The notes beneath the pieces are model-generated. The model made no database searches. It was not told the origin of the DNA and worked only from the letters and a program-made list of their open reading frames with translations. DNA of 41,235 bases from a bacterium (lineage in GTDB: Bacteria; JACRDZ01; JAQUKH01), in the NCBI GenBank assembly GCA_040754625.1, contig JBFMCF010000040.1:1-41235 (forward strand). The letters run 5' to 3'. Within the stretch, counting starts at the first letter, position 1, and every line of letters begins with the position of its first letter. The translations under genes were made by a program, and so were the position numbers. This document shows, in pieces, positions 2,364-19,433 of the stretch.

Positions 2364-2620
2364 TGGACAAAGAGCTGAAAGAAGAATGTATCCTGGTTTT
2401 TCAAACTACGCATAGAACGCTGCAGGCGGAAAATATTTTAAAAAAAGAGAAGATAAAGATTAAAATTATATTAAAACCCCGTTCAATTACAACTGATTGC
2501 GGCCTGGCGATTAAATTTGACCCTTTAAACAAAGATACAGTCTTAAAAATTATTAAGGATTATAATTTGTCATTAATGGGAATATACGGCAGGAGCGGAG
2601 AAAAATGGATAAAATTATAA
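2363..2620 (+). CDS. DUF3343 protein, putative sulfur/selenium carrier
   Basis: Small protein of 85 residues with the DUF3343 pattern: a beta-alpha start (ILVFQTTHRTLQAENIL), then a basic strand, then a conserved cysteine in TTDCGLAIKF. DUF3343 proteins are commonly annotated as putative Se/S carriers and occur beside EF2568-type desulfurases, as here. The single cysteine C47 is the obvious candidate to accept sulfane sulfur or selenium from the upstream enzyme. The start codon overlaps the desulfurase stop, and the C-terminus overlaps the start of the following cytochrome gene by 16 bp, so three genes are packed as one transcription and translation unit. Role in cofactor delivery is inferred from family and context. 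Confidence 0.8.
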   Translation: MDKELKEECILVFQTTHRTLQAENILKKEKIKIKIILKPRSITTDCGLAIKFDPLNKDTVLKIIKDYNLSLMGIYGRSGEKWIKL

Positions 2621-4134
2621 AAAAGATATCGCGGGAATTATTTATGCTTTTTGTTTTGTTTATTGTTTTTTTAAATTTGCAAAAAGATATTTTTGCAAAG
2701 GATGACCAGAATTGTTCTGAATGCCATGCGCAAAAATATATGCGCAAGTACGACGATGACGGTAAACTGACAGAACTTTTTACGGATAAAGACATGTTTG
2801 ACCATTCCATTCACGCAAAATTGACCTGCCAGACCTGCCATACAAGTGTCAAAAGCACCCCGCACAAGACAGAAGAAATTGAAAAAGTGGATTGCTCGGC
2901 GGAATGCCATATCGATGATACGACTATACCAAAGGCATACCGCCATAAGGCGCAATATGATACGGTGTTCCGCAGTGTTCACGGGGCAAGTTTTGAGGAG
3001 AAAAATGTGTGCGGCTGTCACGACCCTCATCGTATGACGAAAGCGGGAGAATTAAGCTCAAATGAAATTATAAAGGAATGTCTTAAATGCCATAATGATA
3101 TTTATATGATGAAAAAACACAAGGTTTCGATAAAACCGCAAAAAACTTATGCTGATTCAATTCATGGAGAGATAATTAAATTCGGCGACCTTGATGCCCC
3201 AACTTGCAGTTCCTGCCATAATTATCATGATATACGGAGGAAGGATGATCCAAAAGCCACTCTTCATCCCCTCAATCTAATTAAAGTCTGCAAATTGGAA
3301 AATTGCCATCCGAACGCAAGGCCCGCGTTCGCGGAGGGCAGTGTCCATTTTATTTACAGGGGCACAAGAAAAAAAATAATATATTGGACAGAGAAAATTT
3401 TATTTTATATTCTTCTTATTACTGTCTGCGGGATGATGGTCCACTATCTTTCGGATTTTTTAGGTGAAGACGGCGAACGCAGAAAAAGTTTTAATATTAT
3501 AATCAACCTTCTTATTGTTTTTTTTATTGCCGCGAGCGCCGGGGGATATTACTATTTTAATTTTTATAAAAAACTTCCGTTTAAATATGATACTTTTAAT
3601 TTAAGTGCTGAATTCCAGAGTGTATGTTATACATGCCACGGGGAGATTGTGCATAAAAAAAATAAATCTATCAGGGCGTTTATGAACAGGCATACCCGGA
3701 AGATTGTCTGTGAAACGTGCCACCTGAAAAATAATGAGATAGTTGAAAAAGAAAGACTTTTATCTTTGGCCGGTGATGACAGCACCCTCGTAATACAGGA
3801 AAAAGGGGAGATGAAATACCGCTGGTATGACGGAGGCGGGGAAGTTTTGTCGGGCTTGAGGGGTAACGATGGTGATGACAAAGCCAGGATTGTTCCTTAT
3901 CTTGAAAACAGCGGAAAAATGATATTTATTTTGTCGGATAAGGAAGGAAAAATTCCCCCTGGTTTTGCTGTTTCAAAACGGGGCAGGGAATGTTCTGAAT
4001 GCCATCGCAAGGAAGGATTGCTTGATTTTAAGGCGTTAGGTTATTCAGACGCGCGAATAAAGAAATTTGAGGTATTGAATGTTTACAAACGAATGCGTGA
4101 AGGCGAAACATTTTTTCAACAGCAATTATTTTGA
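2605..4134 (+). CDS. Membrane-anchored multiheme c-type cytochrome
   Basis: 509 residues. An N-terminal hydrophobic segment (about 11-27) acts as signal peptide or anchor. Seven standard CXXCH heme sites are visible starting at residues 37, 75, 159, 201, 341, 369 and 463. Three further Cys-His motifs have unusual spacing: CX3CH at 97 (CSAECH), CX4CH at 229 (CKLENCH) and CX1CH at 136 (CGCH). Two transmembrane helices lie near 258-282 and 296-318, splitting the heme region into an N-terminal block and a C-terminal block. If the N-terminal segment is cleaved, both blocks face the same side. The start at 2605 follows a GGAG box. The likely role is electron transfer between the membrane quinone pool and soluble or surface cytochromes such as the giant protein downstream. 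Family not recognised beyond a cytochrome c3/c7-like heme organisation. Confidence 0.85.
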   Translation: MDKIIKKISRELFMLFVLFIVFLNLQKDIFAKDDQNCSECHAQKYMRKYDDDGKLTELFTDKDMFDHSIHAKLTCQTCHTSVKSTPHKTEEIEKVDCSAECHIDDTTIPKAYRHKAQYDTVFRSVHGASFEEKNVCGCHDPHRMTKAGELSSNEIIKECLKCHNDIYMMKKHKVSIKPQKTYADSIHGEIIKFGDLDAPTCSSCHNYHDIRRKDDPKATLHPLNLIKVCKLENCHPNARPAFAEGSVHFIYRGTRKKIIYWTEKILFYILLITVCGMMVHYLSDFLGEDGERRKSFNIIINLLIVFFIAASAGGYYYFNFYKKLPFKYDTFNLSAEFQSVCYTCHGEIVHKKNKSIRAFMNRHTRKIVCETCHLKNNEIVEKERLLSLAGDDSTLVIQEKGEMKYRWYDGGGEVLSGLRGNDGDDKARIVPYLENSGKMIFILSDKEGKIPPGFAVSKRGRECSECHRKEGLLDFKALGYSDARIKKFEVLNVYKRMREGETFFQQQLF

Positions 4135-4145
4135 TTATTTGAGTT

Positions 4146-4348
4146 CGGCAAATTTTTAATTTCAAAATCTCTTTTTGCTTGGCCCGAAACGCATTTCTAT
4201 AAATCTAAGCTCATTTTGGACGATTTCCACAATCCCATCAAGGAGCAAATCAGGAGTCGTGGAAATCGAAATTCCAAAATTTCGCTAAGATTTATAACAA
4301 AAAGCGTTTCTATAGACGCAAAAAGAGACCTTGAAATTAAATTTGCCA
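4146..4348. repeat. Long imperfect inverted repeat filling the intergenic gap
   Basis: The region between the two cytochrome genes folds back on itself almost entirely. The left arm (about 4146-4230) carries, in order, GGCAAATTT, AATTTCAA, TCTCTTTTTGC, GAAACGC, TATAAATCT, ATTTTGG and ATTTCCAC. The right arm (about 4258-4348) carries the reverse complements of each block in mirrored order. The central loop is about 27 nt. The mismatches are clustered between blocks, as in an old palindromic MITE-like element or a long structured RNA. No ORF lies inside. It could act as a transcript-processing or termination element between the two cytochrome genes; this is inference. Confidence 0.85.
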
Positions 4349-4374
4349 AACCAAAGTTGATTACTTAAATAAAA

Positions 4375-7300
4375 ATGAGAAAATTTTACAGGATATTTTT
4401 AATTTTATTTTTTCAAATATTTTTCTTAAGTTTTTTTGTTACCTCTCCTTTTGCCCAGGAACAGCCGGAGCCGGAAAAATCCCAGGAATTGCAAGAACAG
4501 CAACAGCCACAGGAGCCACAGAAACCGCAGGATACGGAGGTTCAAAAACCGCAGGAACAAGCGCCGGCCGCAGTTAAAGAAGAAGCACTTCCTCTTGAGC
4601 AGCAGGACATATCCAATGAAGAATGTGTAAAATGCCATTTTGAAGATGAAATAAACCTGAAATCCGGTTCAGGCACGGATATTATGGAATATAAAGGCGA
4701 AAAATATGTGGCGGACGAAATGATGTGCTATAGCTGCCACGATGGTTCCACTCTGGATAACCGTGCCACCCGGTGGACCGGGCAGCAGCATCCCATGGGA
4801 ATGAAACCCTCTGAAAAGGTAGTTATACCCCCAAAATTTCCCCTTACAAAAGATGGTAAATTATATTGTTGCACATGCCACACCCCTCATGTTGTCCAGG
4901 GGACAAGCAATCTCAGGAAAGAATCAGTTAATTCTTCTTATTGTGAATTGTGCCATACAAAATTAAGCCAGGGAAGAAAGACCGGCGACCATCCGGTAAA
5001 AGTTGTTTTCAGCAAAAAACTTCCAAAAGAACTAGTAGGGACAAATGCCAAAATATCATTGTCAAATAAACCGGGAGAAGAGGGAAAACCAATTATGATA
5101 TGCCAAACCTGTCATGTGGTTCATGGCGCGCCTAAGGGAACGGAAAAGCTCCTTGTAATAGCAAAAAAAGAGAATGGCATATCGGGCCCGCAGCTTTGTG
5201 AAGCCTGCCATGAGGATAATCCCAGCAGAATGGGTTATAAATATGGAACAACCAGCCATTCCATAAATATTATTCCAGGCGAAGAAAGTAAAATTCCTCC
5301 TGAATGGGAACCGGAAAAGAAAAGCATAAAAGGTGATGATGGAAGATTAACATGCAGGACCTGCCATACGCCTCATTTCGCAGTGAAAGAAACACCTATG
5401 CTGGTAATAAATAATAATAACGGTGCGTTATGCCTTAAATGTCATACAAAATACAGTGGCGGGGGAGTGAAAGAAAAAAATACGGGGTCCCATCCCGATA
5501 TGATAAAACCAAAAAAGGATATGAAGATTAGTGACGTTGTCAAATCCCGAATGGAAGATGATATGGTAACATGCAATACATGCCATTCAAATCACAACAC
5601 GGCTGATAATAAATTGCCCCAGAGCCCGAAGGCGTTATTAGTGGGTAACAGTGACGATTCAAATTTTTGTAAAAATTGCCACGAAAAGGATTACAGCGTA
5701 AGCAAAAAAGAAGCGGAAGAGACAGGCAACCATCCAATTAATATCAAAACTGGAAAGGTAAAATATCTGCCGGGGCTGAAGATTGCTGAATTAGGCGGCA
5801 GGTTAAGCAGTGAAAACCAGGTTATTTGCAACAGCTGCCACCGTACACACGGCGGTGTCAAGGGGACGGGTAACCTTCTTGCCTCTGTTGAGGATAATAA
5901 ATTATGCGGCTATTGCCACCAGGATTACGGTGTTGAAGGTCTGGATTTTCGTGTCCGGATAATAGATAGTACAAAACTTGGTTTGCTGAAAAAAGGCTAT
6001 GATTCTTCAGAAATTATTATAGAAAAGGAAGACGCCCATATAGATTTTACTAAAATAATTCCAGGGTCTTCACATCCTGTCAACCGTTCTTCGGAATTTA
6101 TCAAGGTGAATAAGGACATCCTGGATGCAGGCGGGAGATTAGGCAGGGAAAATAAATTAATATGCCATACATGCCATAAATCACACGGCGCTTATAAAAA
6201 TACCGCCAATCTTGTGCTGGAAAATAATAATTCCGGTTTTTGCCTGAAATGCCATAATGACAAAGAACCGGTCCTTCGCAGTGAACACAGCCTGGAAAAA
6301 ATTGCTCCTCTGGATAAAAACATACAGGGCAAAACACAGTCCGAAAGCGGTATCTGCGGGATATGCCATTTGGCACATGGCGGGACAATAACTACGATGT
6401 TTAGCCGTGGAATTGATTCTACCTTAAACGACCCTGTATCACAGATGTGCTTAAGCTGCCATTCAAAAGGAAAGAACGGGGAGAAAAAATTGGCAGGCGA
6501 ATACAGGCACAGCACGAACATTGGAATAGAAGAAACAAACCGGAAAGAAACATTACTGCCTTTATACAATAAATTGGGAGAGATTATACGTGTCGAGCCT
6601 AAAACCCTGAATAAGGATGGATTTGTTACATGCGGGACGTGCCATAATGTTCATCAATGGGACCCTTCGGATAAGAATAAGGGAAGTGTGGAGAATCAGG
6701 AAGGGGACAGCAAAAATAGTTTTTTACGTATGGTTTATAATAAAAAAGATTATAAATTCTGCAGTGAATGCCATACCGGATACGAGGCTGTCGAAGGTAC
6801 GGAACATGATTTAAGGGTTACGGCCCCGAAGGAAAAAAACAGCAGGGGAGAAATCGCGGAAGAAAGCGGAGTATGCGAGAGCTGTCATTATATACATAAC
6901 GGTAACCAGGCAAATATTTGGGCCAAAGAAGTAAAAGGAGATGCCGACACTATAACACTTTTATGCCGTGAAAGCTGCCACTGGCCGGAAAAATCCGGTG
7001 AGAAAAAATTAATCGGGAAATTTTCCCATAGCATTTTCGTCAATATGAAATATTCGGATGGTGAAACAATACTGCCTCTTTTTGATAAGAACGGGAAGGC
7101 CGTTAAAGAAAAAAGACGGGAAGAGAAAAAAAATGAACTTTTAATAACATGCGCGAGCTGTCATAATGTGCATCAATGGGACCCGCAAGACACAACTGCC
7201 GGCAGGGACAAGAAAAATACTGAAGGTACCAGGCTAAATAGTTTTTTAAGAATAAAAGATAAAGAGGAATCAGAATTATGCATGGATTGCCATTCTAACA

Positions 7301-10300
7301 AACCTACATCCAGGACAGAGCATGACCTCAGGGTTGTAGCCAAGGATGAAAAAAATATCAATAAGCAGACTACGCCGGAAAGCGGCATATGCGGTGCGTG
7401 CCACATAATCCATAATGCCAGGGACAGAATTTTATGGTCGAAAGAGTTAGATACAAGTACGGGAAAAGGCGGCTCAATCACAAGAGAATGTGAAAGCTGT
7501 CATATTGAAAAGAAATGCGGCGAAAAAAAACTGATTGGCAAAATCACACATCCGATAGACCGCGGCCTGCCGGGATATGAGGTAGTTCCTACTTTGCCGT
7601 TATATAGTGAAGACGGCAAGAGGATGTGGCCGAAAGAAGAGGAGAAAAATATTTATGGAGATGTGACCTGCGCCACCTGTCATGATGCGCACCAATGGGA
7701 CCCTAATGATAGTTCTTTAGGGCGCAGCGGTAAAAATGAAGAAGGTAATGTATCAAACAGTTTTCTTCGCATGAGAGACGACTCTACATCTGTCCTTTGC
7801 GGGAATTGCCATGTTGAAAACGTATTAATCCTTAATTCTGAACACGATTTAAATATTACCGCGCCTAAGTCAACTAATGTTATCAAGCAGACAGTGAAAG
7901 AATCAGGGCCCTGCGGCGCGTGCCATTTAATTCATAATGGGCTGGAATTAAAACTTTGGGCAAGGATTCCGGTGCTTGTTAAAGATGATCTGATTGCGAC
8001 CCTTTGCCTGAGCTGTCATTCCAAGGGAAATTGCGCGGAGAAAAAACAGACAGGTAAACATTCTCACCCCACAGGAATATCAATTTTTGAAGCCGGATTG
8101 ACCACAAGCCTTCCGCTTTTTAATCCCGACGTTACAAAACGGGTGGATGGGAAAATGTACTGCAACACATGCCATAATGTACATCAATGGGCACCGGGTT
8201 TCCGCGGGCCCGGGGCCGGTGTTAACCTGGACGGCGATGGAACAAACAGCTTCCTGAGACTGCGTAATGATAAAGAATCGACCCTTTGTCTTGATTGCCA
8301 CCAGCTTGAAGCTTTAATGGTCAACACGGACCATGATTTATCAGTAACAATTCCGAATGAACCGAATATTAATAAAGAATTGGTATCCCAGTCCGGTTCT
8401 TGTTCGGCCTGTCATCTTCCGCATAACGGCGGCGAAGCACAAAGATGGGCTAAACCGCTGGGACCGGGCGATGATATTGTGACAAAACAATGCCAGAGCT
8501 GTCATTATGACGGAAAAATTGCGGCGACAAAAGTAGGCGAGCATTCTCATCCTATTAATGTGAAGATTACGAAAAAAGATATGTCAACTTCACTGCCGTT
8601 ATATACAAGAGACGGCAAAATTGATAATGTTGAAGGTGAAATAGGCTGTCTTACCTGCCATTTTGTTCATCAATGGAGCCCGAAACAATATGAAAAACAA
8701 GACAGGGCGTCAGGTATTTTTGATATAGAAAATATAAGCGATAAAATTATGGGAAAGATAGTCCATGTCGCGGAAAAATTTGTTTATGTTGACCCGACTG
8801 GTTTTCCTGCAAGCAGGGAACTTAAGGAAGGTGAGATACTTTCTATTTTGAAAAAGAAGAAAATAGCCGCGAAACTGAAAATTGAAAAGGTAAATCCTTT
8901 TTCTGCAAATTTCAAAATTTTTGCGCAAAGTCTTTCTGTAGACGAAGATGTTGTCCTGGAAGTGGGAGATGAGGTTTTGGATGACCAGAGACTGCAAAAG
9001 GGAATTGAGGGAAACGGGAAAAATAGTTTTTTAAGAAAGATATGTGATGTCTCAACTGCCTTGTGCATGGATTGCCATTATAAATATATCGGGACTATCG
9101 GTTCAGATCATGATTTATCGATAACTGCTCCGACCGCGAGGAATGCTGACGGAAAGACCGTTTTTGAATCCGGCTTGTGTTCGTCATGCCACAGGGCGCA
9201 TGGAGGCAGCGGCCGCGGGATTTCCGCCCAGGCATTGGTCCATGGGCAGCAGGAACAACAAAACCTTCCTGTATTCAGGCCGATTTGTTATGCCTGCCAC
9301 CGTGATTCCGGGGGGTTAGCCGACCAAAAGAAAATTTCCGTTCACCATAAAATCATTAAATATCCGGAATTTAGTAAAGCTATCAGGTTACCGGAAGTCC
9401 CTTTCCCTTTATATAATCAAAATGATTTACCATGGACAGTAAAGGATGAAGACAGGTATGTAAGTTGTGCCACCTGCCATGACCCTCATCAATGGGACCC
9501 CGAAAGAAAGAATACCCGGCATCCTGTTGATCCAAAAACCGGGAAATATATAATACGGGTAGAAGGCGACGATACCAATAGTTTTTTAAGAATGCGTAAT
9601 GACAAATGGCTGATGTGCAATAACTGTCATCTGACGGAAGTTCATTTACACGCGGAGGAGATGCTTAAGAATATCGGCCTCTGGCAAAATTTAGGCAGTG
9701 TAATTTCAGGCGAAGAAGATGGGAAAACAAAAAAAATGGCCTTTTCATCAACTGAAGTTAATAAAACGGTTACAGATACAGTTTCAGCAGTAACAGACAC
9801 GGCTTATGTTGATACAACCGTTAATATTGATACATCCAATATTGTGGAAGCGGAAGATACTACTTTGGACACCGCTTTACAGGAAGACGAACTTGATATT
9901 AAACCCAGTGTTATAGCTTATATTTATGACAGCCCGGTCCGCATTTCAAAAACTTTCCGTATCAGCATTATTTTCAGCGAAATGCTGAATCCTAATGTTG
10001 TTCCTAAAGTTACATTAATAGGCGACGGTAAAAAGTCTCCGGAGGTCCCGGAAGCGGGCGGGGTTTTTGGCACCAATGAAGTTGAAAATGATACTTATAT
10101 AACTCCTCCTATTGTTTTGGATGAAGATATGGGAGGCAATATTACTGTTGTTGTTGAGAATGCAGAGGGTGTTGTTGAAAATAAAATGGACCCTGTTGCA
10201 GACCATACCTTTTTCTTTGATACAAGGCCTGAAACCATGGAGTTTTACCGGACAGCGAAGCTTATTATTAAAGAAGGAAGTTATACGCATTCTCCTGAAA

Positions 10301-11658
10301 TACATCTTTTGATGGAGGCAAAAGGAGCGGTTAAAGTTTTAATCAGTGAAAATGCTGTTTTTAAAAACGCGGTTTGGCAGGATTTTGTCCCTGAAAAGAA
10401 ATTAATGCTTTCAGAAGGGGACGGCGAAAAGATAATTTATGTCAAATATAAGAAAACCGATGAGATTGAAACAGTGCCTTTGAATGTAAAGGTTAATTTA
10501 GTAACTATTAAAAATGAAAGTGAAATCCGCGGGACAATCACTGATAATATAAGATTGACCACCGCGGGAAGCCCTTATATTATCCACGGGCTGGTAAACC
10601 TGCCTGAGGGTTTTTCCATGATAATTGAAAAAGGAGTAAAACTGTTGTTTGAAGATGCGGGGCAGAAAGAGGTTGAAAAAGGGAAATTAGTTGTTGAAGG
10701 AAGCATTATTGTGCAGGGCACTACAAGCATCCCGGTAATTTTTACATCCCGCAAAGATACACCGGCCCCTGAAGATTGGGAGGGTGTTACTATTGTTCGT
10801 TCCAAGGTCCAAAGTTCACTTGAAGGTTTTCAACTGAATTATGCAAAAAATGGGATTTTTCTGGAAGCGGCGCCGGTGTTGATAAAAAACAGTGTTATTG
10901 AAAAGTGTTCGGAATCCGGCATTGTTTGTGCCGGCCGTTCGGACGCCAAAATTACAGAATGTTCTATAATGGAAAATAAGTATGGAGTATCAGTTGAACA
11001 ATCCAATCCTATTATTAATAAAAATACAATTTTAAAAAATAGGATAGGGATTTCCGCCAAGGCGGTTTCCAAACCGAAGATAGCCACGAATACAATTAAA
11101 TTCAACGGGGTCGGGATAAATTGCGAGGAGATATCAAGCCCGTGGATCCTTGACAATTTAATTTCTGAAAACAGCAATGGTATCCGGTGCGCGATTTATT
11201 CGCCGCCGATTATAGCAAATAATGAAATAACGAAAAATAGCGAAAGCGGGATTTATATTGATGAGGCATGCCCGATGGTATTTAAGAATATTATAAAAGA
11301 AAATAAAATTGGTGTCCAGATTGAGAATGATTACCGTAAATTTTTAATCAGTTTCAACAACATAGTTAATAATATCGAATACGCGGTAAAAATGGATAAA
11401 TATATTATGCAGGTAAACGCAATAGATAACTATTGGGGAGCGGAAAGAAGAGAAATAATTTCAAAGTTAATTTCTGACGGGAGTTCAATTAAAGAAGAAG
11501 TGAAAGTGGAAGAAAAAATCGAAGAAAAGACTTTTATCATGTTTGGGGAAAAAGCGGAAGAGGAACCGGAAGAAGAAAACAAAATTAAATTAGGTGTTGT
11601 AAAATTTCTTCCATTCCAGATAGAACAGATAAAGGATGCCGGTATATCACTGGATTAG
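4375..11658 (+). CDS. Giant 38-heme-site cytochrome with C-terminal beta-helix
   Basis: 2427 residues, exported: hydrophobic signal peptide (about 5-26) ending in SPFAQ, then a Gln/Pro/Glu-rich linker to residue 70. Between residues 84 and 1752 I count 37 CXXCH motifs plus one CX3CH (CRESCH, residue 864). Most odd-numbered sites continue as CXXCHxxH, giving paired motifs, with further HP, HD and HS histidines as likely distal ligands. From residue 753 on, a four-heme module with signatures HQWDP, SFLR, EHDL and EKKxxG repeats about 5.5 times. An insertion near 1459-1540 resembles a small SH3-like beta domain. After the hemes come an acidic/Thr-rich linker, an Ig-like segment (about 1845-1960) and a right-handed parallel beta-helix (about 2050-2355) with NosD-like INKNTI, IANNEI and ISFNNI rungs. 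The tail is acidic. No Shine-Dalgarno is visible. Likely extracellular or outer-surface electron conduit; substrate unknown. Confidence 0.9.
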   Translation: MRKFYRIFLILFFQIFFLSFFVTSPFAQEQPEPEKSQELQEQQQPQEPQKPQDTEVQKPQEQAPAAVKEEALPLEQQDISNEECVKCHFEDEINLKSGSGTDIMEYKGEKYVADEMMCYSCHDGSTLDNRATRWTGQQHPMGMKPSEKVVIPPKFPLTKDGKLYCCTCHTPHVVQGTSNLRKESVNSSYCELCHTKLSQGRKTGDHPVKVVFSKKLPKELVGTNAKISLSNKPGEEGKPIMICQTCHVVHGAPKGTEKLLVIAKKENGISGPQLCEACHEDNPSRMGYKYGTTSHSINIIPGEESKIPPEWEPEKKSIKGDDGRLTCRTCHTPHFAVKETPMLVINNNNGALCLKCHTKYSGGGVKEKNTGSHPDMIKPKKDMKISDVVKSRMEDDMVTCNTCHSNHNTADNKLPQSPKALLVGNSDDSNFCKNCHEKDYSVSKKEAEETGNHPINIKTGKVKYLPGLKIAELGGRLSSENQVICNSCHRTHGGVKGTGNLLASVEDNKLCGYCHQDYGVEGLDFRVRIIDSTKLGLLKKGYDSSEIIIEKEDAHIDFTKIIPGSSHPVNRSSEFIKVNKDILDAGGRLGRENKLICHTCHKSHGAYKNTANLVLENNNSGFCLKCHNDKEPVLRSEHSLEKIAPLDKNIQGKTQSESGICGICHLAHGGTITTMFSRGIDSTLNDPVSQMCLSCHSKGKNGEKKLAGEYRHSTNIGIEETNRKETLLPLYNKLGEIIRVEPKTLNKDGFVTCGTCHNVHQWDPSDKNKGSVENQEGDSKNSFLRMVYNKKDYKFCSECHTGYEAVEGTEHDLRVTAPKEKNSRGEIAEESGVCESCHYIHNGNQANIWAKEVKGDADTITLLCRESCHWPEKSGEKKLIGKFSHSIFVNMKYSDGETILPLFDKNGKAVKEKRREEKKNELLITCASCHNVHQWDPQDTTAGRDKKNTEGTRLNSFLRIKDKEESELCMDCHSNKPTSRTEHDLRVVAKDEKNINKQTTPESGICGACHIIHNARDRILWSKELDTSTGKGGSITRECESCHIEKKCGEKKLIGKITHPIDRGLPGYEVVPTLPLYSEDGKRMWPKEEEKNIYGDVTCATCHDAHQWDPNDSSLGRSGKNEEGNVSNSFLRMRDDSTSVLCGNCHVENVLILNSEHDLNITAPKSTNVIKQTVKESGPCGACHLIHNGLELKLWARIPVLVKDDLIATLCLSCHSKGNCAEKKQTGKHSHPTGISIFEAGLTTSLPLFNPDVTKRVDGKMYCNTCHNVHQWAPGFRGPGAGVNLDGDGTNSFLRLRNDKESTLCLDCHQLEALMVNTDHDLSVTIPNEPNINKELVSQSGSCSACHLPHNGGEAQRWAKPLGPGDDIVTKQCQSCHYDGKIAATKVGEHSHPINVKITKKDMSTSLPLYTRDGKIDNVEGEIGCLTCHFVHQWSPKQYEKQDRASGIFDIENISDKIMGKIVHVAEKFVYVDPTGFPASRELKEGEILSILKKKKIAAKLKIEKVNPFSANFKIFAQSLSVDEDVVLEVGDEVLDDQRLQKGIEGNGKNSFLRKICDVSTALCMDCHYKYIGTIGSDHDLSITAPTARNADGKTVFESGLCSSCHRAHGGSGRGISAQALVHGQQEQQNLPVFRPICYACHRDSGGLADQKKISVHHKIIKYPEFSKAIRLPEVPFPLYNQNDLPWTVKDEDRYVSCATCHDPHQWDPERKNTRHPVDPKTGKYIIRVEGDDTNSFLRMRNDKWLMCNNCHLTEVHLHAEEMLKNIGLWQNLGSVISGEEDGKTKKMAFSSTEVNKTVTDTVSAVTDTAYVDTTVNIDTSNIVEAEDTTLDTALQEDELDIKPSVIAYIYDSPVRISKTFRISIIFSEMLNPNVVPKVTLIGDGKKSPEVPEAGGVFGTNEVENDTYITPPIVLDEDMGGNITVVVENAEGVVENKMDPVADHTFFFDTRPETMEFYRTAKLIIKEGSYTHSPEIHLLMEAKGAVKVLISENAVFKNAVWQDFVPEKKLMLSEGDGEKIIYVKYKKTDEIETVPLNVKVNLVTIKNESEIRGTITDNIRLTTAGSPYIIHGLVNLPEGFSMIIEKGVKLLFEDAGQKEVEKGKLVVEGSIIVQGTTSIPVIFTSRKDTPAPEDWEGVTIVRSKVQSSLEGFQLNYAKNGIFLEAAPVLIKNSVIEKCSESGIVCAGRSDAKITECSIMENKYGVSVEQSNPIINKNTILKNRIGISAKAVSKPKIATNTIKFNGVGINCEEISSPWILDNLISENSNGIRCAIYSPPIIANNEITKNSESGIYIDEACPMVFKNIIKENKIGVQIENDYRKFLISFNNIVNNIEYAVKMDKYIMQVNAIDNYWGAERREIISKLISDGSSIKEEVKVEEKIEEKTFIMFGEKAEEEPEEENKIKLGVVKFLPFQIEQIKDAGISLD
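6631..9660 (+). repeat. Tandem tetraheme modules within the giant cytochrome gene
   Basis: Diverged coding repeats. Each unit begins at a CXXCH followed by VHQW, AHQW or PHQW: starts at 6631, 7150, 7669, 8161, 8646 and 9466. The first two units are both 519 bp, the next two 492 and 485 bp, the fifth is 820 bp because of the inserted beta domain, and the last holds only two hemes. Each full unit encodes four heme sites in a fixed order with SFLR before the second and an ESG or QSG stretch before the third. A more diverged unit can be traced upstream. Confidence 0.8.
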
Positions 11659-14762: not shown

Positions 14763-15901
14763 TATTGGGCCTGAAAAAAAATATATTGGTATATATTTTT
14801 TTGGCAGTAATTGTTTTTCCTCTCTGCCGGGTTTATTCACAGGCAGGGGCGGACAAGCTTTATTCGGAAAAAATAAAGAAGCAGTATGGTAAAGTATCAA
14901 CTGTTGAAAAAGATTCTATTGTTATTAATCTCGGGTGGGACGATGGAATTATTCCAGGTATGATATTTAAGGTTTTTGACCACGATAATAATCTTGTTAA
15001 CAGATTGGAAGTCAAGGAAATACTGGGGAATAACATTTCCCTGGCTGATTTGTACAGGAAGGAGAAAAGTTTAAAAATAGAAGGCGGCCGGAGAGAAGTA
15101 AAAACAGGGTACGCGGTAGAATTAGAGATTGAAAATTCCGCCACAGTCCCAAACGGCGATGAAGAAATCCAGTTAAAAAGGCTTAAAGACAAAAACTTGC
15201 AGGTTAGAGTTGATGCAATGGATATATTGGCAAGGACCGGGGGGATTAATGTAATACCGGAAATAATTCAAATATTAAATGAAAACTCTGCCGCGGACCC
15301 TGTAAATAAAGAGGGGGAATCCTCACGGCAGAATTCCGGCATAAATTTAAAAAGAAGCGCCTCATGGGCGTTAGGAGAGATATCTTTTCGTGTATTTTCA
15401 CAAATTTTTTTTGAAAGCAAGGACAAAACAGTCCTGGATAAAGAAAAAGAAGGGTTACTATATAAGGTCACAAATATTTTGATTGATTTATGTTCAAGCC
15501 CGGATAAAAATATTTCTTTAAATGCCGCGAGAAATATCGGGCGTTTAATAGCAATAAGGCAGATTTTTGGTTTAAAAAATGAATTTTTGCTGGCTCCCCT
15601 TACTAAAATCTTAATCAAAGAAAATGACAACTATGTAAAACGGGCGTTGATTGATGCCCTGGCTGAATTGAAGGATGAACGGGCGGTTTTTGTTTTACTG
15701 TCAATCTGGGGTGATAAAGACCCTGTGGTAAGGGCGAATGTGAGCTGGGCATTGGAAAAGATAGGTTACCCTGTGGTTCCGTTCTTAAAAGAAATAATTA
15801 ATGACCCGGATGAAGAAAAGAGGAAAGAAGCTGTCCGTGTTTTATTTAAGCTTGGATATAAAACAAAAAAGGTTGGGAATAAGTATGAAATTGCTGAATA
15901 G
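14759..15901 (+). CDS. Exported HEAT-repeat protein with SH3-like domain (short paralogue)
   Basis: 380 residues. TTG start supported by a GGAGG box 5 bp upstream and by overlap with the recG stop. Signal peptide at 7-27 (ends VYSQ). Residues 43-125 form a small beta domain: GKVSTVEK, INLGWDDGIIPGMIFKVF, then a Leu-Glu-Val strand and a KTGYAVELE end. It resembles the C-terminal domain of FlgT-like proteins. From about 135 to 375 are alpha-helical HEAT/PBS-lyase repeats with KDERAVFVLLSIW and DPVVRANVSWALEKIG. The whole mature protein matches the C-terminal third of the next gene's product, so the pair arose by duplication. Probably periplasmic scaffold or binding protein; no catalytic motif seen. 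Confidence 0.85.
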   Translation: MILGLKKNILVYIFLAVIVFPLCRVYSQAGADKLYSEKIKKQYGKVSTVEKDSIVINLGWDDGIIPGMIFKVFDHDNNLVNRLEVKEILGNNISLADLYRKEKSLKIEGGRREVKTGYAVELEIENSATVPNGDEEIQLKRLKDKNLQVRVDAMDILARTGGINVIPEIIQILNENSAADPVNKEGESSRQNSGINLKRSASWALGEISFRVFSQIFFESKDKTVLDKEKEGLLYKVTNILIDLCSSPDKNISLNAARNIGRLIAIRQIFGLKNEFLLAPLTKILIKENDNYVKRALIDALAELKDERAVFVLLSIWGDKDPVVRANVSWALEKIGYPVVPFLKEIINDPDEEKRKEAVRVLFKLGYKTKKVGNKYEIAE

Positions 15902-18900
15902 GTTATTTGGATATTTAATTATTGTTTTATTTTTATTTTTATCTTTTCATAAAGGTTTTGCTGAAACCGAAGTGGACAAAGCAATTGAGCTTCTTTTGAA
16001 AGGCAATGTCCGTGAGAGAGAATACGCGGCGGAGTTTTTAGGAAAGCTGAAGATAAAAAAGGCGGTACCTTTTCTAAAAGATGCGATGGTCAAGGACGAA
16101 AGTTTTCTGGTCCGCCTGGCTTGCGTTTCTTCACTGAATAAATTCGGGGAGGATTATGATGTTGAACTTGTTGAAAAATCCCTGCGGCACGAAGATAAGT
16201 ATGTGAGGCTGAAAGCGGTCAATGTTTTACAGAATTTATCCGAATGGAAAAACAAGGAGATTATTTTTAGTTTATTTAAAGATAAAGATATTGAAGTCAG
16301 GAGAAATATACTTATTACCGCGGGGAAATTAAAAATAAAAGAGGCTTTTGAGCCGCTTGTCCTTATACTGAAAGACCCGGTCCCTGAAAGCAGGGAATCG
16401 GCGGCCATTTCGCTTGGCAGTTTAGGCGACAAAAGGGCGATAAAACCTCTCCTGGAGACATTGGAAGACACCTCCTCAAAAGTGGTAAGGGCGGCGGTCA
16501 TTTCTTTAGGGGAGATTGGGGATGAAGAGATTACAATGCCTATGATAAGAATGCTGGGCCATAAAGATAAATCTGTTCGTTATTTTGCAATAAATATTTT
16601 GGGGAAATTGGGTGATAAAAGCGGTTTCAAGGCGGTCCTCGGGATGGTAAATGATAAGGACCCGAAGGTCAGGTTAGGCGCGGTAAACGTCCTTGGAAAG
16701 TTAAAAATAAAGGAATATATCCCTGTCTTCAAAGAAGTATTGAACGGGGAAACCGATCCCTCTGTAAAATTGGAGGCCGCGAAAAGTTTGGTTTTAATGG
16801 AAGATTATACAGGTTATGATTTAATCAGGAATGAAGTTTTTAATAAAAACACCGATTTGAAGAAAGAAGCGATAGAAATATTAGGGATGATTAAAGATAA
16901 AAGCTCGATATCCACGCTTAAAGATTTATTTTTATATCCAAACCCGGAAATAAAAGAAACTGTTATCTGGTCGCTTGGAGAAATCAAAGACGCCTCTACA
17001 TTTAATTTTTTAATAAAAATACTGAAAGAAGAAAAGGGTTTTACGATTGCCGTTATTGATGCAATAAAAAAATTGCAGGACAAAAGATTGATTCCTTTTT
17101 TAAATGACTTCCTGACTGACGAAAATTTTTTAATCCGGAGGCACGCGGCGCAGGTTTTAGGTAATTTTTCCGACAATAACCCGGAAATCGAAAAAAGGCT
17201 GGTTAATCTTCTATCTGATGATTATCTTGAAGTAAGGCAGGCCGCTCTTGCCACCCTGACTAAATGGGGCAAAAAAATAGATTTTAACCTTTTAAATATT
17301 GCCAGGAATAATTCTGATCCGCTCCGGATAACTGCTATTGCGGCCTTAACAGAATTAAATAATAAAGAGGTGATCCCGATTATACATTCTTTAATCAATG
17401 GAGACTCACCAACGCGGTCTAAATTATTATTGGCATACCAGTTAGCTTCTTTCGGGGATTACAGCGGCAAGAATTTAATAATAGAAGCGGCAAAGTCTGA
17501 GGATTACACTTTAAGAAAACAAGCGGCAGAGTATTCATCCAGATTCATGGATGCCGATATATTTAATGCGCTTTCAGGTCTTATTAAAGATAATAAAAAG
17601 GAGGTTAAGCTGGCGGCTGCAAAAGCCCTCGGGCAGATGTTTGATGAGCGCGCAGTTTTTGCTTTAATGGACAACCTTGTTGTTGAAAATCTGTATCTTG
17701 AAACTGAAATAGATAATTCGTTAGTCCATCTGCAGAATATTTCTATCGATTTTCTCATGAATGTTTTCAAAGATAAAAAATCTTTATCGAAGGAAGATGT
17801 CATCTATATGGAGAGGGTCAGCTCAATTTTAGTCAAAATTGGATTGCCTTCCATTGATAAAATTATTAAGACATATGAAGTCCAGGATATTAATCAAAAA
17901 ATTAATATGACGGCTGTCCTTGTAAGGATCGGAAAAGACAGCTTAAGGCCGCTGGTTAATTACTGGGACGGGAATTTTACCCAGCTAAATAATACGCTGG
18001 TTGATGCTATTACAAAAATATGCATGGATGATACAAAAATATTAATTGACCTTCTGGAAGATGAGATGCTGCAAAATAAGGCTGTAAAACTTATCGCGCG
18101 GTTCCCCTCTAATAAAATTTTAGATTTACTAATTGATAAATTGTATATTACAAGCGGTATGACGCGGATAAAAGTCATTGAATGCTTGAGGGGAATAAGC
18201 GCTGTATCCACGGACAGGTTGATAGCGGATTTAAATAAATCGGACGAAGCAAGACAAATAGTTATAATTGAGGTCCTGGGAGAAATCAGGTCAGAAAAGG
18301 CAGTCGCACCTCTGGAAAAAATAATGGCAGAAACACAAAATATTAAAATCAGGGAATCTGCCGGCCAGGCGGTTGCGAATATTAAAAAAACACTTGCAGA
18401 CATGCAGGGCAGTGATAAATCACAACTGGATAAATTAAAGAAAAAACGCGGCAAAATTTCTATGGTTGAGAAAAATTTTATTTTCACGAATTTAGGATTG
18501 CAGGACGAGGTCAATGTGGGGATGGTTTTTAAGATTTTTGACAATGATAATAATATAGTCAACAAATTGGAAATTACCGAAGTCGTAGGCAATAATACAT
18601 CGATTGGCAAAATACTTGGTAACGCCAAAGTGGAGGTTGGTTATGCCCTGGAAGAAGAATTCAAGGAAGCGGAAGTAAAAGTGACAGATGCCGAAGAAAT
18701 AAAAACACAGCTAGAACGTTTAAAAAGTAATGATCTTTCGGTTAAGGCCAATGCAATCAATATGTTAGGGGGCAAAGGAGATGAAACTGTTCTTCCCGGT
18801 ATTCTTTATTTTTTAGAAGGTAATGGCCGGCAAAAAGACGCCGGGGAGACGTCCGGGGAAGTGGAAAAAGCATGGGTGAATATAAGAAAAAGCGCTGTAT

Positions 18901-19433
18901 GGGCTGCCGGTGAAATAGAATATAAACTGGTTTCAAAAATTTACCAGGAAAGTGGAGAAAAAAAGGATCTAAAAGATAATGAAAAGGAAATGTTAAACAA
19001 AATTACTGATATATTCGTTAAATTATTTCTTAATGAAGACAGTGGTATCCGTCTGGCCGCAGTCAGCAATATTAAAAGATTAATACCGCTAAGGGACGCT
19101 TTTGGCCTGAAAAATGATTTTATTCTTGAACCTTTATGCAGCCTGTTAAATGATCAGGATAATTATACCCAGCGTGCGGTAGTTGAGGCATTAGCGGAAC
19201 TAAAAGACCCCAAAGCTATTCCCTTTTTGGTTAATGTTTGGGATGATGATGATTCCGCGGTAAGGGGAAATGTCGCATGGGCCCTGGAAAAAATAGGAAA
19301 ACCCGCATTGCCCAGTCTGAAAGACGCTTTAAAAGGCAATAATGAAGAAAAAAAACGTTCGGCTGTCACTGTGCTTTATAAACTGGGTTATAAAGTAAAA
19401 AGAAACGGAAATAATTATGAAGTGGTGGAATGA
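15885..19433 (+). CDS. Large exported HEAT-repeat protein (long paralogue)
   Basis: 1182 residues from ATG 15885. I prefer this over the in-frame start at 15801 because it places a clean signal peptide (MKLLNRLFGYLIIVLFLFL, cleavage near FAET) at the N-terminus; it overlaps the previous gene by 17 bp. Residues 30-840 are continuous HEAT/PBS-lyase-type repeats with the recurring AVxxLGxLxD and DxxVRxAA pattern. Around 854-935 is a small SH3-like beta domain (GKISMVEKN, VGMVFKIFDNDNN), followed by a second HEAT block to the end. The last 340 residues align with the whole preceding protein, including the unusual FGLKNDFILEPL and NVAWALEKIG segments. No enzymatic motif is visible. It likely acts as a periplasmic or cell-envelope protein-interaction scaffold. 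Confidence 0.88.
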   Translation: MKLLNRLFGYLIIVLFLFLSFHKGFAETEVDKAIELLLKGNVREREYAAEFLGKLKIKKAVPFLKDAMVKDESFLVRLACVSSLNKFGEDYDVELVEKSLRHEDKYVRLKAVNVLQNLSEWKNKEIIFSLFKDKDIEVRRNILITAGKLKIKEAFEPLVLILKDPVPESRESAAISLGSLGDKRAIKPLLETLEDTSSKVVRAAVISLGEIGDEEITMPMIRMLGHKDKSVRYFAINILGKLGDKSGFKAVLGMVNDKDPKVRLGAVNVLGKLKIKEYIPVFKEVLNGETDPSVKLEAAKSLVLMEDYTGYDLIRNEVFNKNTDLKKEAIEILGMIKDKSSISTLKDLFLYPNPEIKETVIWSLGEIKDASTFNFLIKILKEEKGFTIAVIDAIKKLQDKRLIPFLNDFLTDENFLIRRHAAQVLGNFSDNNPEIEKRLVNLLSDDYLEVRQAALATLTKWGKKIDFNLLNIARNNSDPLRITAIAALTELNNKEVIPIIHSLINGDSPTRSKLLLAYQLASFGDYSGKNLIIEAAKSEDYTLRKQAAEYSSRFMDADIFNALSGLIKDNKKEVKLAAAKALGQMFDERAVFALMDNLVVENLYLETEIDNSLVHLQNISIDFLMNVFKDKKSLSKEDVIYMERVSSILVKIGLPSIDKIIKTYEVQDINQKINMTAVLVRIGKDSLRPLVNYWDGNFTQLNNTLVDAITKICMDDTKILIDLLEDEMLQNKAVKLIARFPSNKILDLLIDKLYITSGMTRIKVIECLRGISAVSTDRLIADLNKSDEARQIVIIEVLGEIRSEKAVAPLEKIMAETQNIKIRESAGQAVANIKKTLADMQGSDKSQLDKLKKKRGKISMVEKNFIFTNLGLQDEVNVGMVFKIFDNDNNIVNKLEITEVVGNNTSIGKILGNAKVEVGYALEEEFKEAEVKVTDAEEIKTQLERLKSNDLSVKANAINMLGGKGDETVLPGILYFLEGNGRQKDAGETSGEVEKAWVNIRKSAVWAAGEIEYKLVSKIYQESGEKKDLKDNEKEMLNKITDIFVKLFLNEDSGIRLAAVSNIKRLIPLRDAFGLKNDFILEPLCSLLNDQDNYTQRAVVEALAELKDPKAIPFLVNVWDDDDSAVRGNVAWALEKIGKPALPSLKDALKGNNEEKKRSAVTVLYKLGYKVKRNGNNYEVVE

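Follow-up and report, generated by a model that had tools for sequence, protein, structure and literature searches.

We identified a giant multiheme cytochrome whose single chain joins a 38-site heme wire to a pair of Ig-like domains and a right-handed beta-helix. It is encoded in the window (by which we mean the whole stretch of DNA analysed, 41,235 bp), the entire contig C40 of a 2.75-Mb genome that is 98% complete in 138 contigs. Since independently assembled relatives have the same fusion, an assembly join is ruled out; from the comparison of these sequences, the fusion is real and conserved. The wire half belongs, as judged by alignment, to a widespread family of 17-38-heme HxW wires. As to its function, we favour, at about even confidence, a wire that bridges the periplasm and whose C-terminal domain tethers or docks the far end in the envelope, over an extracellular anchor.

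One chain carries a heme wire, Ig-like domains and a beta-helix

Motif counting in the fused ORF gave 37 CXXCH (from aa 84 to aa 1748) and one CX3CH (aa 864) followed by a heme-free C-terminus, as the first-pass annotation had stated; no CX4CH and no heme site beyond aa 1752 was found, and far fewer than one CXXCH is expected from the composition of the ORF. The heme part matches the Pfam models Paired_CXXCH_1 (7e-41), Cytochrome_C7 (1e-34) and MtrC/F II-IV (2e-31). The CX3CH is probably a real heme site, since it is aligned with an ordinary CXXCH in relatives and is likewise a CX3CH in two fused relatives (G001 and G002, below). The four-heme repeats of aa 661-1752 carry CxTCHxxH(Q)WxP, NSFLR and further conserved histidines (Table 1). 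Besides those of CXXCH, there are about four conserved histidines per four-heme repeat; bis-His ligation therefore fits, and these residues would suffice for all hemes. The wire uses about 46 aa per heme (aa 1-1765).

Table 1. Features of the fused gene and of the membrane cytochrome upstream, in positions of the window
Feature	Position	Strand	Basis or remark
Membrane multiheme cytochrome, 509 aa, family A (multiheme + TM) fused to family B (TM + triheme)	2605..4134	+	z = 51 and 33 vs L084 genes
Fused gene of 2427 aa, joining a multiheme wire (38 sites) to two Ig-like domains and a right-handed beta-helix	4375..11658	+	one uninterrupted ORF
Sec signal peptide, aa 1-27; cleavage probable behind SPFA; lipobox cysteine absent	4375..4455	+	visual inspection
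Q/E/P-rich flexible linker, aa 28-79, weakly constrained (53% identity for aa 1-75)	4456..4611	+	
N-terminal wire part, aa 84-627: seven CXXCH doublets = 14 hemes	4624..6255	+	motif count
C-terminal wire part, aa 661-1752: 24 sites in six four-heme repeats	6355..9630	+	motif count
CX3CH site CRESCH, aa 864-869	6964..6981	+	CX3CH in G001 and G002 too
Heme-free beta-rich insert within the fifth four-heme repeat, aa ~1440-1545	8692..9009	+	shared with fused relatives of the phylum
Variable linker from wire to C-terminal domains, aa 1766-1840	9670..9894	+	52% identity, dN/dS 0.26
Two Ig/FNIII-like domains, aa 1841-2048	9895..10518	+	structure model, Foldseek
Right-handed parallel beta-helix of the NosD/AlgG/AlgE4 fold, aa 2049-2355; epimerase DPH motif absent	10519..11439	+	Pfam, model, Foldseek, profile search
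Lys/Glu-rich C-terminal tail, aa 2356-2427, modelled with low confidence	11440..11655	+	AlphaFold2

AlphaFold2 modelled aa 640-1440 of the wire (19 sites, 40 sequences, without hemes) with a mean pLDDT of 85.6 and a pTM of 0.76. Foldseek found no match for this 19-site model, although a heme-rich chain with little secondary structure is a hard case for the program; the heme geometry of the wire is putative. Searching the full fused protein against the PDB with phmmer gave no match either, and no relative of it was found in the viral contigs searched. Profile comparison with solved multiheme cytochromes produced short matches around CXXCH pairs, the best being 7tfs, 9yuq and nitrite reductases; unlike these, the wire is part of one giant chain and has no whole-fold Foldseek match.

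At the C-terminus (aa ~2138-2272), Pfam detected Beta_helix (PF13229, 6e-22; 79.6 bits, above the cut-off of 25.9) and NosD (PF05048, 2e-16). AlphaFold2, run on aa 1836-2427 with 16 homologues (mean pLDDT 86), predicted two beta-sandwich domains (aa ~1841-2048), then beta-helix rungs ~22 residues apart up to aa ~2350, with a pLDDT mostly of 94-98 in the beta-helix. Foldseek matched the sandwich domains to many Ig/FNIII pairs and the beta-helix best to the right-handed beta-helices of AlgE4 and AlgG, with NosD lower; a profile search of the beta-helix agreed (AlgG, NosD, AlgE4) and gave NosD and AlgG as the nearest solved relatives. Pfam, structure prediction and Foldseek thus bear out the domain order proposed by the first-pass annotation, whose single Ig-like segment corresponds to two Ig/FNIII-like domains. 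The beta-rich insert and the Q/E/P-rich N-terminal linker are two features beyond that annotation. PHROGs gave one marginal match for the C-terminus, to a structural protein.

The fold is that of NosD, AlgG and AlgE4, from which the domain differs in being fused to a cytochrome and in having no epimerase DPH motif. DPH is the catalytic motif of alginate C5-epimerases and is absent after aa 2045 of the fused protein, so an epimerase role is unlikely. More generally, the nearest solved relatives would accord with an enzyme, or with a NosD-like copper/heme maturation factor that helps wire assembly. We consider this very improbable, given the absence of the motif, a score of 30.4 bits for the NCBIfam NosD model (far below its cut-off of 300) and the existence of other wires made without a beta-helix.

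Relatives carry the same fusion

The phylum of the window genome is small, with three other genomes in the set searched. In G001, from the same genus, the chain has 2526 aa, 79% identity to the window chain and 37+1 sites, and the flanks are common to both genomes (cysteine desulfurase, Se/S carrier, 509-aa cytochrome, fusion, CbiQ, RecG). Orthologous fusions occur in two other families of the phylum (G002 and G003). The G002 chain has 37 sites and runs off its contig inside the beta-helix; the G003 orthologue (L044:1651-9266, in a genome labelled 'Candidatus Desantisbacteria' by NCBI) consists of two ORFs 12 bp apart, and the break may reflect a frameshift or a genuine division of the wire. 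A tree built on the wire half groups the window, G001, G002 and G003 orthologues in one clade (support 100/97, bootstrap not settled). A paralogue on contig C83 of the window genome (L031:7972-16485; 2838 aa, 22 sites) has the same wire-Ig-beta-helix order, followed by more Ig units and a SPOR domain (PF05036, 1.3e-6).

An artefact of assembly or gene calling that joined two genes, a risk raised by the first-pass annotation, is thus extremely improbable: nothing in the window points to it, the split in G003 lies within the wire and not at the fusion point, and the same chain with its flanking genes is present in G001, with further fusions in G002, G003 and the C83 paralogue.

Between the window genome (G000) and G001, dN/dS is 0.08 for the beta-helix, 0.05-0.07 for the two main wire parts and 0.23-0.26 for the linkers, values of which the ranking alone is meaningful because dS is near saturation. 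The constraint on the beta-helix is about as strong as that on the wire. This bears on another reading, in which domain shuffling supplied the C-terminal part as a generic structural add-on with no specific role in electron transfer. The genome has 31 PF13229 matches, and the ~200-aa Ig unit occurs several times over in paralogues, in many combinations, as such an add-on might; the strong constraint on the beta-helix, the retention of the fusion across three families and a separate beta-helix beside a wire gene in another phylum (below) nevertheless make it unlikely.

The wire is widespread and follows a conserved set of genes

The family alignment served as query in a scan of 84,980 species genomes of bacteria and archaea; the best 80 of 157 relatives represent 79 distinct loci, to which the following counts refer. 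Outside the phylum of the window there are 71 wire genes with 17-38 hemes, most often 18, 20, 24 or 28. Their chains end at most 87 aa (median 29) past the last heme, and none of the 71 has a C-terminal Ig or beta-helix domain. The 675 aa beyond the last heme of the window protein, against a maximum of 87 in these genes, are therefore its variant feature. The window wire shares about 33-46% identity over ~800 aa with wires of other phyla, together with the CxTCHxxH(Q)WxP and NSFLR repeats. The family also occurs in Gallionellaceae (L071), where no porin was recognised beside the wire.

The order A (multiheme + TM), B (triheme + TM), NHL propeller, wire was found in 39 of the 49 loci with at least 5.5 kb upstream among the same best 80 of 157, and in the loci read a cytochrome b561-type gene lies between A and B. 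We found no description of this operon in the open-licence literature; a published account may exist elsewhere. In L089, L090, L092, L094 and L097, which are labelled Nitrospirota, the entire A-B-NHL-wire set is present twice in tandem, the wires having ~18 and ~20 hemes.

Contig C117 of the window genome carries one complete A-cytb-B-NHL-wire set, whose wire has 34 hemes and no beta-helix. At the window locus itself, A and B are joined in the 509-aa cytochrome and neither a cytochrome b gene nor an NHL gene is present; since the full set is on C117, the window copy may have a specialised role, which counts against the periplasm-bridging reading. The 509-aa cytochrome and the fused wire gene form the same syntenic pair in G001 and G002.

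In the phylum Schekmanbacteria, all 9 genomes searched have the wire and none has it fused. In three of them (G041/L084, G042/L062 and G043/L149), a beta-helix lipoprotein gene of ~350-390 aa stands directly downstream of the wire and is followed by genes for a NapC-type cytochrome, a TPR protein and an octaheme cytochrome; four other genomes of the phylum with longer downstream sequence have no beta-helix gene there. At the other loci among the best 80 of 157 relatives, the extra lipoprotein gene of G001 is the only separate beta-helix gene near a wire. Because one phylum has the domain as a neighbouring gene of its own and another has it within the wire protein, we infer from these three genomes that wire and beta-helix are partners working together.

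A tethered wire across the periplasm is the favoured reading

The periplasm-bridging reading would work as follows. Electrons would pass, in either direction, between the 509-aa cytochrome anchored in the inner membrane and the wire, which would conduct along closely spaced bis-His hemes over much or all of the periplasm. The Ig/beta-helix part would hold the far end, either at the peptidoglycan or at the outer membrane or a partner there; with the far end fixed, electrons would be handed over at a set place. Wire and tether would be one molecule through the fusion.

Several observations argue for this arrangement. BamA/Omp85 was found in the window genome, which is therefore diderm. One end of the wire most likely lies at the inner membrane, since the feeder genes encode inner-membrane electron-transfer proteins. 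SPOR is a peptidoglycan-binding domain, which would place the C-terminal side of the C83 paralogue in the periplasm. We read the beta-helix as an envelope tether because of this SPOR domain and because the separate beta-helix is a lipoprotein among periplasmic-type cytochromes. Counting against a tether, Ig and beta-helix domains are common on cell surfaces, and the separate lipoprotein occurs in three genomes only; no case of a cytochrome tethered by a beta-helix is known to have been put to the test. With regard to length, about 27 hemes have been estimated to cross a periplasm of ~200 Å (Edwards et al., PMC7096707), a number within the 17-38 hemes of the family; by the same estimate, 38 hemes would span about 280 Å, which exceeds the periplasm and counts against bridging.

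The first-pass annotation had instead suggested a dedicated extracellular electron-transfer system, with a beta-helix that binds polysaccharide, anchors the wire in a matrix or recognises a solid acceptor. The connection that it drew with the membrane cytochrome upstream and with envelope electron transfer is supported by the conserved pair in G001 and G002 and the homologous operon in many bacteria; the specifically extracellular part is not supported. A wire outside the outer membrane, with a beta-helix that binds polysaccharide or mineral and so attaches to a matrix, a partner cell or a solid acceptor, is possible but rather doubtful. In its favour, the fold of the beta-helix resembles that of the polysaccharide-active AlgE4 and AlgG, the same genome encodes a cytochrome of ~5559 aa with LamG lectin domains, and the pectin-lyase-like domain of ANME MHC-C has been suggested to recognise partner cell walls (PMC9012536). 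Against it, the window cluster has no porin or other outer-membrane gene (its neighbours are cysteine desulfurase, Se/S carrier, CbiQ and RecG), the conserved partners are of inner-membrane or periplasmic type, the relatives of the beta-helix are lipoproteins among periplasmic-type cytochromes, the C83 paralogue carries SPOR and the epimerase DPH motif is missing.

More tentatively than for the single protein, the family may represent a class of membrane-to-membrane wires, with a length that varies in four-heme steps and a far end locked by a dedicated beta-helix docking lipoprotein, fused into the wire in one small phylum. If true, the fusion would show how giant periplasmic cytochromes are positioned, and what their electron recipient is. 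How the periplasm is crossed, by small shuttles or by one bridging wire, is unsettled, and the wire family is a clear bridging candidate: it is spread over many phyla, accompanied by a conserved feeder module of the inner membrane, and its pattern of fusion and splitting points to the protein at the end of the wire.

Comparison with known systems

An earlier case of a beta-helix sharing its chain with a multiheme cytochrome is ANME MHC-C, a very large protein with a pectin-lyase-like (beta-helix) domain, thought to serve extracellular electron transfer (Chadwick et al. 2022, PMC9012536). The likeness is one of domain content: MHC-C is archaeal with an N-terminal beta-helix, whereas the window protein is bacterial and its beta-helix is C-terminal (aa 2049-2355), behind two Ig-like domains. 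PCC3, a giant periplasmic cytochrome with 21-27 hemes on one chain, has been proposed as a periplasm bridge (He et al. 2017, PMC5566968; PMC10734462), and the window wire is likewise a giant single-chain multiheme cytochrome of similar size. PCC3 clusters, however, include genes for a porin, an inner-membrane protein of ~300 aa and an extracellular cytochrome, while the window cluster has no porin, and PCC3 has 22-39 aa per heme (PMC5566968) against about 46 in the window wire. We rejected PCC3 membership on these two features, porin and residues per heme, which set the wire apart by character and not by sequence.

Compared by description, the locus is like the CbcBA and CbcL-type modules of Geobacter in having a multiheme cytochrome at the inner membrane. 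Those modules combine a multiheme cytochrome with a cytochrome b at the inner membrane and feed extracellular electron transfer; in the window copy, the cytochrome b is missing and two multiheme parts are fused.

Other features of the window and its genome

An imperfect palindrome of ~220 bp (4138-4355; RNA folding z -9.5) separates the 509-aa gene from the fusion gene; the corresponding gap in G001 is about 11 bp. Four more long partial or near-full copies, 87-92% identical, are found in the genome; on this sequence evidence, the palindrome is a MITE-like repeat inserted between the two genes. Upstream (1200-2620) are genes for a cysteine desulfurase family protein, with a high score for a selenocysteine lyase model, and a putative Se/S carrier protein, both kept beside the cytochromes in G001. 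Further downstream (15801-19433), a protein of 1210 aa consists mostly of HEAT repeats and is preceded by another HEAT-repeat protein.

Elsewhere in the genome, contig C83 contains a giant open frame (L032:4744-19998) of 5559 aa that has over 40 heme sites and into which LamG/ConA-like lectin domains are inserted; it adjoins other large cytochromes and looks like an extracellular system. On contig C61 (L034), five beta-helix proteins are clustered, and both of the two that were checked carry WD40-like (PD40) propeller repeats.
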